Below are positions 26,886-32,748 of a stretch of 64,000 bases of DNA, piece by piece; position 1 is the stretch's first letter; each line of letters starts with the position of its first letter. The notes beneath the pieces were generated by a model. That model saw only the letters and a program-made list of their open reading frames with translations. It was not told the DNA's origin and searched no databases. A program made the translations under genes and the position numbers. The DNA lies in assembly GCA_019636475.1 (NCBI GenBank), contig JAHBXN010000010.1:62001-126000 (forward strand), in the 5' to 3' direction. Source of the DNA: Phycisphaerae bacterium. Lineage in GTDB: Bacteria; Planctomycetota; Phycisphaerae; UBA1845; UTPLA1.

Positions 26886-27008
26886 TCCGGCGCACGGGGC
26901 GCAAAGGCCGGGCCGGAGCAGGCTGCGACTCACTCGCGACACGACACTTACGTCCTCACGAACTTACCTCGTTGCCAGACGCCCCGGGCCGTCTATGATG
27001 GTCCGTTT

Positions 27009-28391
27009 ATGCCAACCTGGCTCATAAATCTCCTCTACGCATTCGCGGCGATCGCCTATCTGCCGGTCCTGCTCTATCAAATGCTGATTCGGAAGAAAAA
27101 CCGTCGCGGCTGGAGCGAGCGATTCGGAGGCGTCCCCTACAGGACGAGCGAAGGACCCTGCATCTGGATCCACGCGGTTTCGCTTGGGGAGGTGAACGCC
27201 ACCAAGAGCCTCGTTGCGGAGATTGAAGCAACACTCCCAGAGTTTGAAGTGGTGATTTCCGCCACCACGGACACCGGCTATGCGGCGGCGAGGCGGCTTT
27301 ATCCTCACAAGCTCATCTTCCGATACCCGCTCGATTTCTCTTTCGTGGTACGGCGCGTTTTCAGTCGCATTCGGCCAAATGCAATCATCCTGATGGAACT
27401 CGAGGTATGGCCGAATCTGGTTCGACTTGCCCACGAACGGGATATCCCCATCGGTATCGCCAACGGTCGCATCACGGCAGAGAAATCGATGAAGCGATAT
27501 GATTTGCCGTTTGTTCGGGATGTCGCCCGGGAGATGTTCTCGTGCATTTCGTGGACGGCCGCGCAGAACGAGGTGTATGCATCGCGTTTCGAGGCGCTGG
27601 GAATTCCGCATGACCGAATACGCATCACCGGTTCGATGAAGTACGACACGGCGCAGGTGACCGATACCATTCCGGGCACCGAGCAACTCGCGCTGGCGAT
27701 GGGGATCGATCGCGCGGCGCCTCTGATTGTCGCAGGTTCCACCGGACCGGGCGAAGAAGACCTGCTGCTCCGGGCATATACTCGCCTGCGTCTCGAAATT
27801 CCCAGGATACAACTCGCGATCATCCCGCGAAAACCGGAGCGGTTCAACGACGTGTCTCGCGCGCTCGAGACGCGCGGACACGCCGTCAAGCGGCGAAGCC
27901 TCTACCAGGACCCTGGCGGCCCAGATCCTGACGTCGTCGTACCCACAGACATTGCACGCACAGGCGGGCATCTGAGCCGCGAAAAGTCCACGATCTTCCT
28001 CGGGGATACGATGGGAGAACTCCGCAAGTTCTACGCTCTTGCGGATGTGGTGTTCGTCGGCCGCACTCTGGTGCCGCTGGGCGGCAGCGACATGATGGAA
28101 GTCGCGGCCCTGGCGAAGCCGATGTGCTTCGGACCGCATGTGGACAACTTCGCGGATGTTGCGGAGCGATTGCTCAAGGCGCGCGGCGCGGTTCAGTTCA
28201 TCAAGGACGACGACCTCGTTCCAACGCTGCGCGGGCTGCTCATGGATCGAGCGGCAGCCGAGGCGATGGGCCGGCGGGCGCAGGATGTCGTTCGAGAGAA
28301 CACCGGCGCAACGCGACGCACCGTCGAGATGCTGTGCCGTGTCCTTGGGCAATATGCGGAACCAATTCACGAGGATGAATCGGTCGCCTGA
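27009..28391 (+). CDS. waaA: 3-deoxy-D-manno-octulosonic acid (Kdo) transferase
   Basis: Kdo transferase adding Kdo to the lipid A precursor at the inner membrane, so the organism makes LPS. The N-terminal membrane anchor (WLINLLYAFAAIAYLPVLLYQ) is followed by RFGG, IWIHAVSLGEVNATKSL, LMELEVWPNL, GRITAEKSMKRY, VAGSTGPGEEDLLL and the C-terminal donor site IFLGDTMGELRKFYALADVVFVG. The normal GGHN segment reads GGSDMMEVAALAKP here. Length 460, slightly long. ATG 27009 is the first start and places the anchor at the terminus. An APC permease follows. Confidence 0.94.
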   Translation: MPTWLINLLYAFAAIAYLPVLLYQMLIRKKNRRGWSERFGGVPYRTSEGPCIWIHAVSLGEVNATKSLVAEIEATLPEFEVVISATTDTGYAAARRLYPHKLIFRYPLDFSFVVRRVFSRIRPNAIILMELEVWPNLVRLAHERDIPIGIANGRITAEKSMKRYDLPFVRDVAREMFSCISWTAAQNEVYASRFEALGIPHDRIRITGSMKYDTAQVTDTIPGTEQLALAMGIDRAAPLIVAGSTGPGEEDLLLRAYTRLRLEIPRIQLAIIPRKPERFNDVSRALETRGHAVKRRSLYQDPGGPDPDVVVPTDIARTGGHLSREKSTIFLGDTMGELRKFYALADVVFVGRTLVPLGGSDMMEVAALAKPMCFGPHVDNFADVAERLLKARGAVQFIKDDDLVPTLRGLLMDRAAAEAMGRRAQDVVRENTGATRRTVEMLCRVLGQYAEPIHEDESVA

Positions 28392-28413
28392 GCAGAGCGG
28401 CGGGCCGTCACCC

Positions 28414-29871
28414 ATGGACCGAACGAAAGTCACGGCCAGCACGTCGGCTCCATCCGGAGATGGGAAATCCCTTCGCCAGATCATCGGCGCGGTAAGCATC
28501 GTCGGTGTCGGAGTTGGCGGCGCGATCGGATCGGGCATCTTCCGAACGCCCGGCGAACTGGCCCAACTAGTGCAATCACCGTGGCATATACTCGGCCTCT
28601 GGGCGGCGGCGGGAGTCCTGACACTCATGCAAAGCCTCGTCACCGCCGAGTTGGCCACCCGAATGCCGGAGGCCGGCGGCGAATACCAGTATCTCAAGGC
28701 GGCCTACGGCCGATTCGCCGCGTTCATCTTCGGCTGGTCGTTTACGATATTCATTATCGGCGCCGGTGGTGCGACGATTGCCGCGGCACTGGGCGACTTC
28801 GCCGCGACTTTGTGTGGACTGAATCCCGCAAATGCGTCTCCGCGATTCGCCTGTGCGGCGATCGCGCTCGTGACCGGCATAAACTGCCTTGGTCTTCGGA
28901 CAGGCGCGATCACGCAAAATCTGCTTACCGGGTTGAAAGTCGCAAGCGTGATCGGCATCGCGGCCGGGGCCATGATTGTCGCGGGCCGATGGATTCCGGC
29001 CGAGGCACCGGCTCAAACCGTGTCAACGGCATCGAGCTCGATCGATGCTGTGGCGCACGGCACCGCGGTGCCGATGTCCTTCTGGGGAAAATCCGCCCTG
29101 CTGTTCCAGGCGATGCTGCTTGCTTTCTGGCCTTATACCGGCGCGACCGATCCGGCAAAGCTGGCCGAGGAGACGCGCGATGTCCGTCACGCGATGCCGC
29201 GTGCCCTCGTCACCACGGTCGTCATATTGACGATTGTCTATATGCTATACAACTACGCCCTGCTCTGCGCTATGCCGCCCTCGACGACGGCCGCCCGGCC
29301 TGATGTTCATTCCGCCATTTTCCATGACGTGAAGGGCCTGCCGATCGAGACGCTGATTCTCATTGCGAGCATCCTGATCTGTCTTGGCGCCCTCTCAAGT
29401 GTTTTCCTGGCGAACACCCGGGTGACGTTCGCCTTGGCTCGCGACGGCCTGACCTTTCAATTGCTCGGCCGCATGTCGCCCCATCAAGCTCCGACGGCCT
29501 CACTGATTGCCTGCGGCGCGATCGCCTGTGCCTTCGCCCTGAGCCGCGGCTTCTCGCAGATCCTGAGCATTTACTTCATGGGGAGTACAATATTGTTCGG
29601 ACTGGCCTATGCGAGCCTGATTGTGCTTCGGCGGCGCGACGCAGCCCTGAACCAACCCTTCCCGAGCGACGCATTTCGCCTGCCGGGCGGCATTCCGATT
29701 GCGTGTGTCCTGATTCTGGTCGAAGTAGCCATCGCTGCAAGCCTTGTCCATGCAGACGTCATGACGTGGAGCGGACCGGCCGGACAGCGCAGCTATGACA
29801 CGCTATACTCGCTTTCGTTTTTTGGAGTCCTCGCCATCTTTTTCCTTGCATGGAGAAGACGCCGCGCGTAA
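28414..29871 (+). CDS. APC-family amino acid permease
   Basis: Polytopic transporter of the amino acid-polyamine-organocation superfamily; about 12 hydrophobic segments in 485 residues. The first helix carries the unwound substrate-binding GVGGAIGSGIFRTPG motif, with helix 3 GEYQYLKAAYG and helix 6 LLFQAMLLAFWPYTGATDPAKLAEETRD. A C-terminal Arg cluster RRRRA follows the last helix. The start is not certain: ATG 28414 is 22 bp after waaA; ATG 28375 would overlap waaA but its GAGG abuts the codon. The substrate cannot be read from sequence. Confidence 0.88.
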   Translation: MDRTKVTASTSAPSGDGKSLRQIIGAVSIVGVGVGGAIGSGIFRTPGELAQLVQSPWHILGLWAAAGVLTLMQSLVTAELATRMPEAGGEYQYLKAAYGRFAAFIFGWSFTIFIIGAGGATIAAALGDFAATLCGLNPANASPRFACAAIALVTGINCLGLRTGAITQNLLTGLKVASVIGIAAGAMIVAGRWIPAEAPAQTVSTASSSIDAVAHGTAVPMSFWGKSALLFQAMLLAFWPYTGATDPAKLAEETRDVRHAMPRALVTTVVILTIVYMLYNYALLCAMPPSTTAARPDVHSAIFHDVKGLPIETLILIASILICLGALSSVFLANTRVTFALARDGLTFQLLGRMSPHQAPTASLIACGAIACAFALSRGFSQILSIYFMGSTILFGLAYASLIVLRRRDAALNQPFPSDAFRLPGGIPIACVLILVEVAIAASLVHADVMTWSGPAGQRSYDTLYSLSFFGVLAIFFLAWRRRRA

Positions 29872-29953: not shown

Positions 29954-30190
29954 CTAGCAACGACTGTGGGTGCCGTCACACCAGGGCAGATTGCCGCTTC
30001 GATGGCACTGACAGACGGCCTTTCGGGCCGGATCGGTAATCTCGGTCACGATCGGCGCGAGGCCGGTGTTCTCCCGCTTGTGGGCCCCATCGCAGTAAGG
30101 CAACTTGGCAGACAGGCCGCATTGGCAGTACGCCTTCCTGCCGGGCGTTTCGTCAATGACCAGCGGCGCTTTGCCGTGAATCGGTTCCAT
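29954..30190 (-). CDS. Tandem CDGSH iron-sulfur protein
   Basis: A 78-residue soluble protein with two CDGSH-type 2Fe-2S motifs: C22, C24, C33, H37 in YCQCGLSAKLPYCDGAH, and C60, C62, C71, H75 in CQCHRSGNLPWCDGTH. This is the tandem architecture of bacterial and mitochondrial MiNT-type proteins, binding two pH-labile clusters used for electron or cluster transfer. A GGAGG ribosome site is 11 bases before the ATG. It follows, in the same leftward direction, a cysteine-ladder lipoprotein gene. The partner is unknown. Confidence 0.93.
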   Translation of the reverse strand: MEPIHGKAPLVIDETPGRKAYCQCGLSAKLPYCDGAHKRENTGLAPIVTEITDPARKAVCQCHRSGNLPWCDGTHSRC

Positions 30191-30352: not shown

Positions 30353-30520
30353 TCACTTCTTATCCTTGCAGCACGGAGCAGTGCAACCTTCCTTGCACTC
30401 CTTCTTGCAGTCCGACGCGCACTCCTTCACGCAGCATTTCTTTTCGGTGCAGCCGGCGCCCGTCAGAGTGAAACAACAGGCCATCGCCACAATCAACAGG
30501 ACTCGGGAGATCAGTTTCAT
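30353..30520 (-). CDS. Tiny cysteine-ladder lipoprotein/exported protein (55 aa)
   Basis: A 55-residue gene, easily missed because of its size. The ATG has GGAG 8 bases upstream and the frame closes with TGA. Residues 1-23 form a signal peptide (hydrophobic LLIVAMA ... FTLTGAG) ending at C24, a possible lipobox Cys, although the -3 residue is Gly and not Leu/Val. The mature part has nine Cys: C24, C29, C30, C34, C38, C42, C46, C50 and C51. From C30 to C50 a Cys stands at every fourth position, in a Lys/Glu-rich background, which would line one face of a helix. The periodic CxxxC spacing recalls Cu(I)-binding four-helix proteins. Function unknown; metal binding is inferred. Confidence 0.8.
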   Translation of the reverse strand: MKLISRVLLIVAMACCFTLTGAGCTEKKCCVKECASDCKKECKEGCTAPCCKDKK

Positions 30521-30620
30521 ATCTCAACTCCTATTCACAAGGTGCAACACGAATCGCACAGGAAACCCGGCCCACACAGGCCAAGTCTCCAATCGATTGC
30601 CGTTCGATGGAATGCCGACC

Positions 30621-31274
30621 TCAGGGCGTGGTCGCGGAATTCGTTGATGTCGATTCCGCTTCCGGCTCTTCAACCTCTGCTCCATCGCTGATTCGCAGCG
30701 TGGAGTCGGGGCTGAGATGGTTTCCGTCCGGCGGCTCTCGGGATGCGGAATCCGATCGCCGGGCGTCGTGATCGTAACCGGCAAAATTCCGATCGATTCT
30801 GCCGTCAGACTCCATGAGCGTTCCTGGTGGAGTCACAACCGCGCTGGCAGGCCATAACAGTCCATTGACAAAGAAGAAACGCCCCGGACCGTACGCGGTG
30901 TGCAGGTAGTCCACCCAGTTCCATGCGAAATGGGTGTCCGGCGCATCCCGATCGTTCGGATCCGTCACATCGTTCCCTTTGTCTTCGAACGGATCTTCAA
31001 ACCACAGCGGCCAATGCGTGACCGCGCCATTCTCGTAGTAGGCGACAGTAGTCTCGCCCCGGCGGGCAAGCGGCGAATAAAACTCTCGCTTGCCCTTGAA
31101 GCCTTCGGCGCTGGCGGTGGTCAATTCCACGTCGATCGACGCGCTTGAGTCCTTGAATGGATCGTTCACATGAGAACACCCGCCAACAATGCCGACAAAC
31201 GCCGCAGCCAACAAACCGAACAGCGGGACGACTCGCAGACCAGGTGATGCGAAACGATCAAACTTCGATGGCAT
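30621..31274 (-). CDS. Hypothetical lipoprotein
   Basis: About 217-residue exported protein with a lipoprotein signal: hydrophobic [14 protein letters not shown], lipobox VGGC, then SHVNDPFKD. The mature part is acidic with many Asp/Glu-rich loops and a [13 protein letters not shown] segment, and ends in a Thr/Ser tail. No domain is recognised; it may sit on the outer or inner membrane. Its start overlaps the end of guaB (ATG 31274 or 31286), so it is probably co-transcribed with guaB. Why a lipoprotein follows guaB is unclear. Confidence 0.78.
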
Positions 31275-32748
31275 TCTCAATTGCATAGTTCGGAGCTTCC
31301 TCAGTGATCATCATATTATGCGGATGCGACTCCGTCATGCTCGCACCGCTGACACGCACGAATCGCGCGTCCTGCCTCAATGCCTCGATCGACGGCGTGC
31401 CGCAGTATCCCATGCCCGCTCGAAGGCCGCCAACAAGCTGGTAGGTCAACTCGGCCAATCCGCCCCGGTAAGGCACCCGTCCTTCAACACCTTCGGGAAC
31501 CAGCTTGTCGCGGTCCGTCACGTCTTTCTGACTATATCGGTCGGCACTGCCGCTGCCCATCGCGCCCAGGGAGCCCATTCCGCGATATTCCTTGAATCGC
31601 CGACCCTTCCAGATCACCAACTGACCGGGAGATTCATCCAGCCCGGCAAACAGCGAGCCGAGCATCACGGCACTAGCGCCGGCCGCGATGGCCTTCGTAA
31701 TATCCCCGGAGTAGCGCACACCGCCATCGGCGATGAGGGGAATGCCTGCATCGTGAGCGGTCGATGCCACGTTCATGATCGCAGTCACTTGCGGTATGCC
31801 GACGCCGGACACCACGCGCGTCGTGCAGATGGAGCCGGGACCGATTCCGACTTTGACACAGTCGGCCCCGGCGTCGATCAGGTCTCGGGCGGCCTCGGCG
31901 GTTGCAATGTTGCCGGCAATGACATCGATGCTGAAGCGGCGTTTGATCTCGCGAACCGTGTTGATGACGTTGTCGCTGTGGCCATGCGCTGAATCGACAC
32001 CGATGACGTCCACGCCGTTCTCGATCAGCGCCTCGACCCGCTCAAATTCAAACACTCCGACCGCCGCGCCGACGCGGAGCCTGCCCCGCTCGTCACGGCA
32101 GCTCTTGGGGAATTGCCGATTCTTGTCGATGTCTTTGATGGTGATCATCCCGACAAGGTGATAGTCGTCGTTGACGAGCAGCAGCTTTTCAACTTTGTGC
32201 TTCTGAAGGATGCGGTCGGCTTCATCGAGCGAGGTGTTCGGCGGCGCGGTCACGAGCTTCTCATGCGTCATGACATCGCGAACGTGCTGCGTCTCCGCCG
32301 AATGATCGTCGGAATGGTCGAGAAACTTCAGATCGCGCCGGGTGAGTATCCCGACAAGGCGATTGTCATCCTCAACAATCGGCACGCCGGAAATGTTATG
32401 AAGCCGCATCAGAACGGCCGCCCGCTCCACCGTGTCGGAGGGCCTGAGCGTCACGGGATCGAGGATGACGCCGTTGGCACTGCGTTTGACCTTATCCACT
32501 TCGCGGCATTGGGCCTCGATTGTCAGATTCTTGTGAATGATGCCGAGCCCGCCCTCCTGCGCCAGAGCAATCGCCAGGCTGGACTCGGTCACGGTGTCCA
32601 TTGGCGCCGACAGCAATGGAATATTGAGGTGTATGTTCCGCGTGAGCTGCGTACGCACATCCACATCTTTGGGGACGATGTTGCTGCGCGCGGGGACGAG
32701 CAGTACGTCGTCGAATGTGATTGCGTCGCCGATGATTTTGTTCCGCAT
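31258..32748 (-). CDS. guaB: IMP dehydrogenase
   Basis: Converts IMP to XMP with NAD+, the committed step to guanine nucleotides, in the cytoplasm. It has 496 residues: N-terminal [13 protein letters not shown], then a CBS pair ([31 protein letters not shown]), [13 protein letters not shown] and [18 protein letters not shown] with the catalytic Cys, and the C-terminal GMGSLGAM flap and [24 protein letters not shown]. All functional motifs are intact. Divergent from oleB. Adenine deaminase at 16 kb supplies hypoxanthine upstream in the pathway. Confidence 0.98.

Follow-up and report, generated by a model that had tools for sequence, protein, structure and literature searches.

The window analysed here is a stretch of 64,000 nucleotides from contig JAHBXN010000010.1 of a Phycisphaerae bacterium, and our subject is a small gene on its minus strand that encodes a Cys-rich lipoprotein of 55 amino acids (the window protein). 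The gene occupies positions 30353–30520, with the ATG at 30520 and the stop codon ending at 30353. A Shine-Dalgarno sequence, AGGAG (30528–30532, minus strand), lies 7 nt 5' of the start codon, within the upstream sequence GTGAATAGGAGTTGAGAT-ATG. A first-pass annotation had already placed a gene of 56 codons with a ribosome site at these coordinates, leaving the strand unstated. The whole protein reads MKLISRVLLIVAMACCFTLTGAGCTEKKCCVKECASDCKKECKEGCTAPCCKDKK and divides at the end of its signal peptide as MKLISRVLLIVAMACCFTLTGAG|CTEKKCCVKECASDCKKECKEGCTAPCCKDKK.

The signal peptide comprises residues 1–23 (30452–30520, minus strand). It carries the basic residues K2 and R6, a hydrophobic core with a predicted helix at residues 4–18, and the lipobox TGAG|C24, at which the PS51257 regular expression matches; these are the marks of a bacterial lipoprotein processed by signal peptidase II (SPII), and they bear out the signal peptide proposed earlier. 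We therefore infer from the sequence that the window protein is a Sec-exported lipoprotein with Cys24 as the predicted acylated residue. Because the PS51257 match puts lipidation at Cys24, neither this residue nor C15 and C16, which fall within the signal peptide, would be free thiols, being either blocked or lost.

The mature chain, residues 24–55 (30356–30451, minus strand), thus consists of the lipid-bearing Cys24 and a peptide with thiols at C29, C30, C34, C38, C42, C46, C50 and C51. The Cys residues listed in the first-pass annotation, a run from C30 to C50 at four-residue spacing together with C24, C29 and C51, are all present, and only C15 and C16 have to be added. The register of the mature chain is CX3CX3CX3CX3CX3CC, with eight thiols in 32 residues; Cys makes up 25% of the chain, which has nine Lys or Arg and no aromatic residues. 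When the mature peptide was shuffled with its composition preserved, 0.033% of the permutations had a six-Cys run at i+4 spacing (p ~3e-4); the register CX3CX3CX3CX3CC turned up 154 times in 300,000 shuffles. A scan of open reading frames (ORFs) in 324 kb of the source genome, used as the background rate for Cys-rich ORFs with a lipobox, returned the window gene as the sole example, and the gene is single-copy in that genome. A scan for promoters and terminators gave no excess above shuffles.

The gene lies in a conserved neighbourhood, all on the minus strand. Upstream are a 221-aa lipoprotein gene (30621–31286), whose product belongs to no Pfam or NCBIfam family, and guaB (31258–32748; IMP dehydrogenase, named from its sequence), which anchors the gene order; downstream is a gene for a tandem CDGSH 2Fe-2S protein of 78 aa (29954–30190; PF09360), in the sequence of which no signal peptide was seen. 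A tblastn-type search with the 55 residues revealed no relative in the genome contigs searched and only chance-level matches in 60 related genomes, so that the window gene was assigned to a family through gene order alone, with the CDGSH gene as the anchor of the synteny search. Directly upstream of the CDGSH gene, six genomes (G002, G013, G005, G014, G016 and G006) from three other genera of the same family (f1) encode a small protein that is rich in Cys and has a lipobox. The order of a lipoprotein of about 200 aa, the Cys-rich lipoprotein and CDGSH is shared by the window, G005, G006, G013, G014 and G016, with guaB upstream where the stretch extends far enough. Several family genomes likewise retain the upstream lipoprotein, of the form CAHVNxPxxDSSA..., between guaB and CDGSH.

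These counterparts are under strong purifying selection: dN/dS (the ratio of nonsynonymous to synonymous substitution rates) is 0.12 for the pair G002/G013 and 0.11 for the pair G005/G014, and in each pair the second sequence retains all the Cys residues of the first (18 of 18 and 23 of 23, respectively). Selection on the exact window sequence is deduced from the counterparts, since the window gene has no close orthologue among the genomes compared. Supported by them, the 55-residue ORF is a real gene. Frequent frameshifts in close relatives had been named in advance as grounds for doubt, as had a lack of homologues with the same Cys spacing. No frameshifts were found in the two close pairs; the spacing fared worse, no homologue with the six-Cys run having been detected. 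In G006 the assignment relies on position and composition only.

What the syntenic counterparts do conserve, in place of the six-Cys run, is a shorter module, C-x3-C-x3-CC-(K), absent from the G006 protein. The clearest case is G016, with five modules of the KCGPDCKKACC kind, at a locus identical to L081 of the metagenome-assembled genome Phycisphaerae OFTM236. From 38 copies in 20 proteins we derived the consensus C-[GA]-[AP]-[DGN]-C-[KT]-K-[PA]-C-C-K. In the window protein the module is C42-KEG-C46-TAP-C50-C51-K52 (30365–30397, minus strand; DNA pattern match at G000:C10:92365-92397), so that it has the properties of the other module lipoproteins, namely small size, export, richness in Cys and one copy of C-x3-C-x3-CC-[KA]. 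Scored against the other copies with a position-specific scoring matrix, this module gave p 0.0015 on full shuffles and 0.046 with the Cys positions fixed; as the latter value is only 0.046, the residue match beyond the Cys spacing is modest. The six-Cys spacing by itself cannot serve as a family marker, because a search with the exact six-Cys DNA pattern yielded mostly simple repeats and its reversed control gave as many matches.

In another family of the same order (f8), the module, here with the consensus CG[AP][DGN]CxK[PA]CCK, forms stand-alone small lipoproteins in at least 12 order-mates. Their neighbours are different: four loci have a YchF-like GTPase gene and four a sodium:solute symporter gene (named by sequence). 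No CDGSH motif was found in the f8 stretches. The mature parts of module members are Lys-rich and almost free of aromatic residues, and some contain His-rich stretches (CEHGHDHG, CDHSHKHQHG, EDHKHGWG). An f8 member used as query against 392 genomes across the phylum gave one weak match, with an internal stop; among plasmids the module lipoprotein had no match. Pfam and NCBIfam likewise returned nothing for the small Cys-rich proteins, the window protein included. Two order-mates, L049 (G021:C245:14226) and L050 (G048:C1:1330554), carry, in a putative reading frame, tandem CHSA-type repeats with C-x3-C every four codons and with His.

The distribution of the module bears on the suggestion of the first-pass annotation that the lipoprotein and the CDGSH protein could form a metal-handling pair, and on the reading of the former as an iron-sulfur cluster or metal donor working with the latter. 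The two genes adjoin in seven genomes of four genera. This linkage is confined to family f1 and is not constant even there: two genomes of genus g2, G001 and G012, retain guaB, the lipoprotein and CDGSH without the small Cys-rich gene, and CDGSH orthologues located elsewhere in G004, G007, G008 and G011 have no small Cys-rich neighbour within the stretch read. The module lipoproteins of f8 lie at other loci, and in the window a 162-bp gap separates the two genes. Moreover, with no signal peptide visible on the CDGSH protein, the two products are predicted to reside in different compartments. The linkage is thus probably neighbourhood inheritance within one family, and a donor role towards CDGSH appears very improbable. 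It should be mentioned that G012 encodes another very Cys-rich exported protein, about 140 aa long and of a different kind (CCCGDDCAALCGDDCNCCGNCDAACEGGCDGCC..., L231:1294-1743, minus strand).

Outside the planctomycetes, we found the module attached to metal-binding domains. In the Flavobacteriaceae a DNA pattern for D-C-[KE]-[KE]-x-C-C, which covered the module core and did not require the HMA domain, matched 44 of 199 genomes, compared with five matches in all for the reversed control. Of 27 flavobacterial ORFs recovered, 26 encode lipoproteins that carry an HMA motif, in nearly every case with one to three modules after it (e.g., L083-L099, L237-L265). HMA (PF00403) was confirmed on two members, with E-values of 2e-13 and 8e-13, and an alignment of 14 members shows no variation at the Cys residues of the first module and the last. 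These proteins share with the window protein a lipoprotein signal and modules, here repeated and of the C-x2-D-C-K-K-x-CC-K type, and differ from it in having HMA ahead of the CX3CX3CC tail. Lutibacter L086 is a stand-alone lipoprotein with four modules. When plasmids were searched, the HMA protein matched HMA proteins only.

A second kind of fusion occurs in two planctomycetes (G083 and G085), where the Cys-rich module part is joined to an FCCxGC domain. This domain has no direct Pfam match and is homologous (E 7.9e-8) to a triple YHS protein of the source genome, which in turn matches PF04945 (E 1.3e-18). The latter protein, L182 (G000:C11, around 76103), is exported, has a His/Asp-rich tail (HGGKGHDHGDHDH) and is likely another metal handler. 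In Reichenbachiella, a membrane pyrophosphatase (PF03030; L096:2727-5183) has a His/Met/Cys-rich C-terminal extension that closes with GHAHEDIHQSGMMMCSHDGPC and then two CX3CX3CC modules.

With slightly more belief than doubt, we read the window protein as a small lipoprotein exported through Sec; once processed, it would be a short thiolate peptide, probably unfolded, that binds soft metal in the manner of a metallothionein. A metal-binding role is suggested by the HMA and YHS-like domains carried by module relatives and by a precedent for the spacing: in Csp3, CXXXC pairs bind Cu(I) (PMC5171941, PMC5519932), and such a spacing is therefore able to chelate it. By analogy, the metal is most likely Cu(I), with Zn(II), Cd(II) and Hg(II) as possible ligands of the same thiols. 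Lipidation of Cys24 would anchor the chain on the periplasmic side of either the outer or the inner membrane, where the eight thiols could wrap soft metal as a thiolate cluster, with the flanking Lys residues balancing the thiolate charge, and the chain would buffer or sequester metal in the periplasm. Fused to HMA or YHS-like domains, the module may serve the metallochaperone domain as a tail that takes up or donates metal.

In composition the window protein agrees with metallothioneins, being small, with Cys in the range of ~15–30% or more, few aromatics and Lys beside Cys. Like the bacterial metallothioneins SmtA and MymT, it is very short, Cys-rich, Lys-rich and probably unfolded without metal; unlike them, it is predicted to be exported and lipid-anchored, has CX3CX3CC spacing and matches no Pfam or NCBIfam model. 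As the curated metallothionein models give no match, we call it metallothionein-like in manner and not a member of a described family; most likely, it represents a metallothionein-like family that the curated libraries searched (Pfam and NCBIfam) do not contain.

High thiol content, lipid anchoring and the lack of a predicted fold would equally suit a thiol redox buffer at the membrane, a sink for oxidants (peroxide, hypochlorous acid, NO or reactive sulfur) that is not dedicated to any metal. The window protein has no catalytic CXXC or thioredoxin-like feature, and the His-rich stretches and the HMA and YHS-like companions of the module indicate metal, which makes a general buffer improbable.

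The first-pass annotation had placed the thiols on one face of a helix, as in Cys-lined copper-binding bundles. In ideal alpha-helix geometry a four-residue step drifts by 40 degrees per Cys, so that C30 lies at 120 and C50 at 320 degrees, a spread of 200 degrees, and the module consensus admits Gly and Pro at several positions. AlphaFold, applied to the mature part as had been proposed at the time, gave no long helix, at low confidence (predicted local distance difference test, pLDDT, 48–58); given these values, no fold is claimed for this part. The model of the flavobacterial protein has a well-folded HMA domain and a Cys tail with pLDDT <50. Such a low-confidence model would fit a metal-organised peptide and equally any low-complexity tail. 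Thiols aligned on one helix face are thus unlikely.

The same observations weigh on a Csp-type copper store, in which a Cys-lined helix would assemble into a helical bundle. The window protein shares CXXXC motifs with Csp1 and Csp3, Csp3 binds Cu(I) through its CXXXC pairs (PMC5171941), and Csp1 is also exported (PMC7558416), as the window protein is predicted to be. Csps are, however, four-helix bundles of >100 aa with a Cys-lined core, whereas here a mature chain of just 32 residues follows a Sec/SPII signal and not one for twin-arginine translocation (Tat), and Pfam gives no match. We consider a copper store of this type scarcely credible. Overall, the earlier observation is confirmed and its interpretation partly supported: export and probable soft-metal binding are supported; the Csp-like Cys-lined helix, the pairing with CDGSH and conservation of the exact four-residue run are not.

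Minicollagen and NOWA Cys-rich domains of cnidarians form disulfide networks, and the Chlamydiae are related to the planctomycetes. Both facts are relevant to a different possibility, that oxidation in the periplasm turns the eight thiols into disulfides linking the lipoprotein to itself or to further Cys-rich proteins of the envelope, the role of these domains in the nematocyst wall and, as is thought, of OmcA in Chlamydia. Residues 34–51 (C34-C38-C42-C46-C50C51) have exactly the group-1 minicollagen register CXXXCXXXCXXXCXXXCC (PMC4195985), and a PDB sequence search gave nothing significant, its sole match being the NOWA Cys-rich domain 2hm3 (phmmer E 0.7). The window protein has no collagen or polyproline part, and the full register is peculiar to it, the other members inspected having CX3CX3CC only. 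A search for the full register over 120 genomes left few other Cys-rich ORFs to be read, all of other kinds, and a literature search for CXXXCXXXCC as a term returned cnidarian papers only. The register is most likely shared through coincidence or convergence.

Cross-linking would also agree with the oxidising compartment in which a Sec lipoprotein is placed, where exported thiols that no fold protects may become oxidised, and with the even number of Cys in 16 of 20 members, the remaining four having odd numbers. By description, OmcA is likewise a small Cys-rich outer-membrane lipoprotein of Chlamydiae (PMC2811131), and Cys-rich YTV proteins exist in the wall of other planctomycetes, although they are reported from Planctomycetales only (PMC8567305). 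Considering also that the module is joined to metal-binding HMA and YHS-like domains, we judge a disulfide cross-linker, the main alternative, to be unlikely.

Several points weigh against the metallothionein-like reading. The minicollagen-type register is present in the window chain, the prevalence of even Cys numbers is mildly suggestive of disulfides, and exported thiols may oxidise; exported Csps reportedly fold in the cytosol prior to export (PMC5519932), which is impossible for a Sec lipoprotein. No metal-regulator or efflux genes adjoin the window gene, no neighbour names the metal, and no Pfam or NCBIfam metallothionein model matches the protein. It is tied to the module family by gene order together with a weak residue match (p 0.046, Cys fixed). 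The flavobacterial HMA fusion may be one evolutionary event, because it is a single gene family in Flavobacteriaceae, and the similarity of modules across phyla may reflect convergence of a simple low-complexity motif.

Elsewhere in the window, a 577-codon open frame (26964–28697, minus strand) lies opposite a 460-aa gene (27009–28391, plus strand) and is probably a shadow frame of this GC-rich gene.

A broader proposal, which we put forward tentatively, is that C-x3-C-x3-CC-K is an undescribed exported soft-metal mini-module, occurring as stand-alone lipoproteins in Planctomycetota and elsewhere as the tail end of periplasmic proteins with HMA or YHS-like domains and even of membrane pyrophosphatases; the window protein would be its minimal form, a lipid-anchored envelope metallothionein. 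The module recurs in two phyla, mostly stand-alone in planctomycetes and behind HMA in Flavobacteriaceae, in neither case within the Pfam or NCBIfam models searched, and its proteins are short enough to escape annotation and ordinary homology search. The thiol-rich metal-binding peptides known so far belong to the reducing cytosol. If the proposal is true, a lipid-anchored thiol peptide in the periplasm must stay reduced or metal-loaded and would mark a new site of metal buffering; if the thiols form disulfides instead, these bacteria would have an envelope peptide whose Cys pattern is that of nematocyst-wall proteins.
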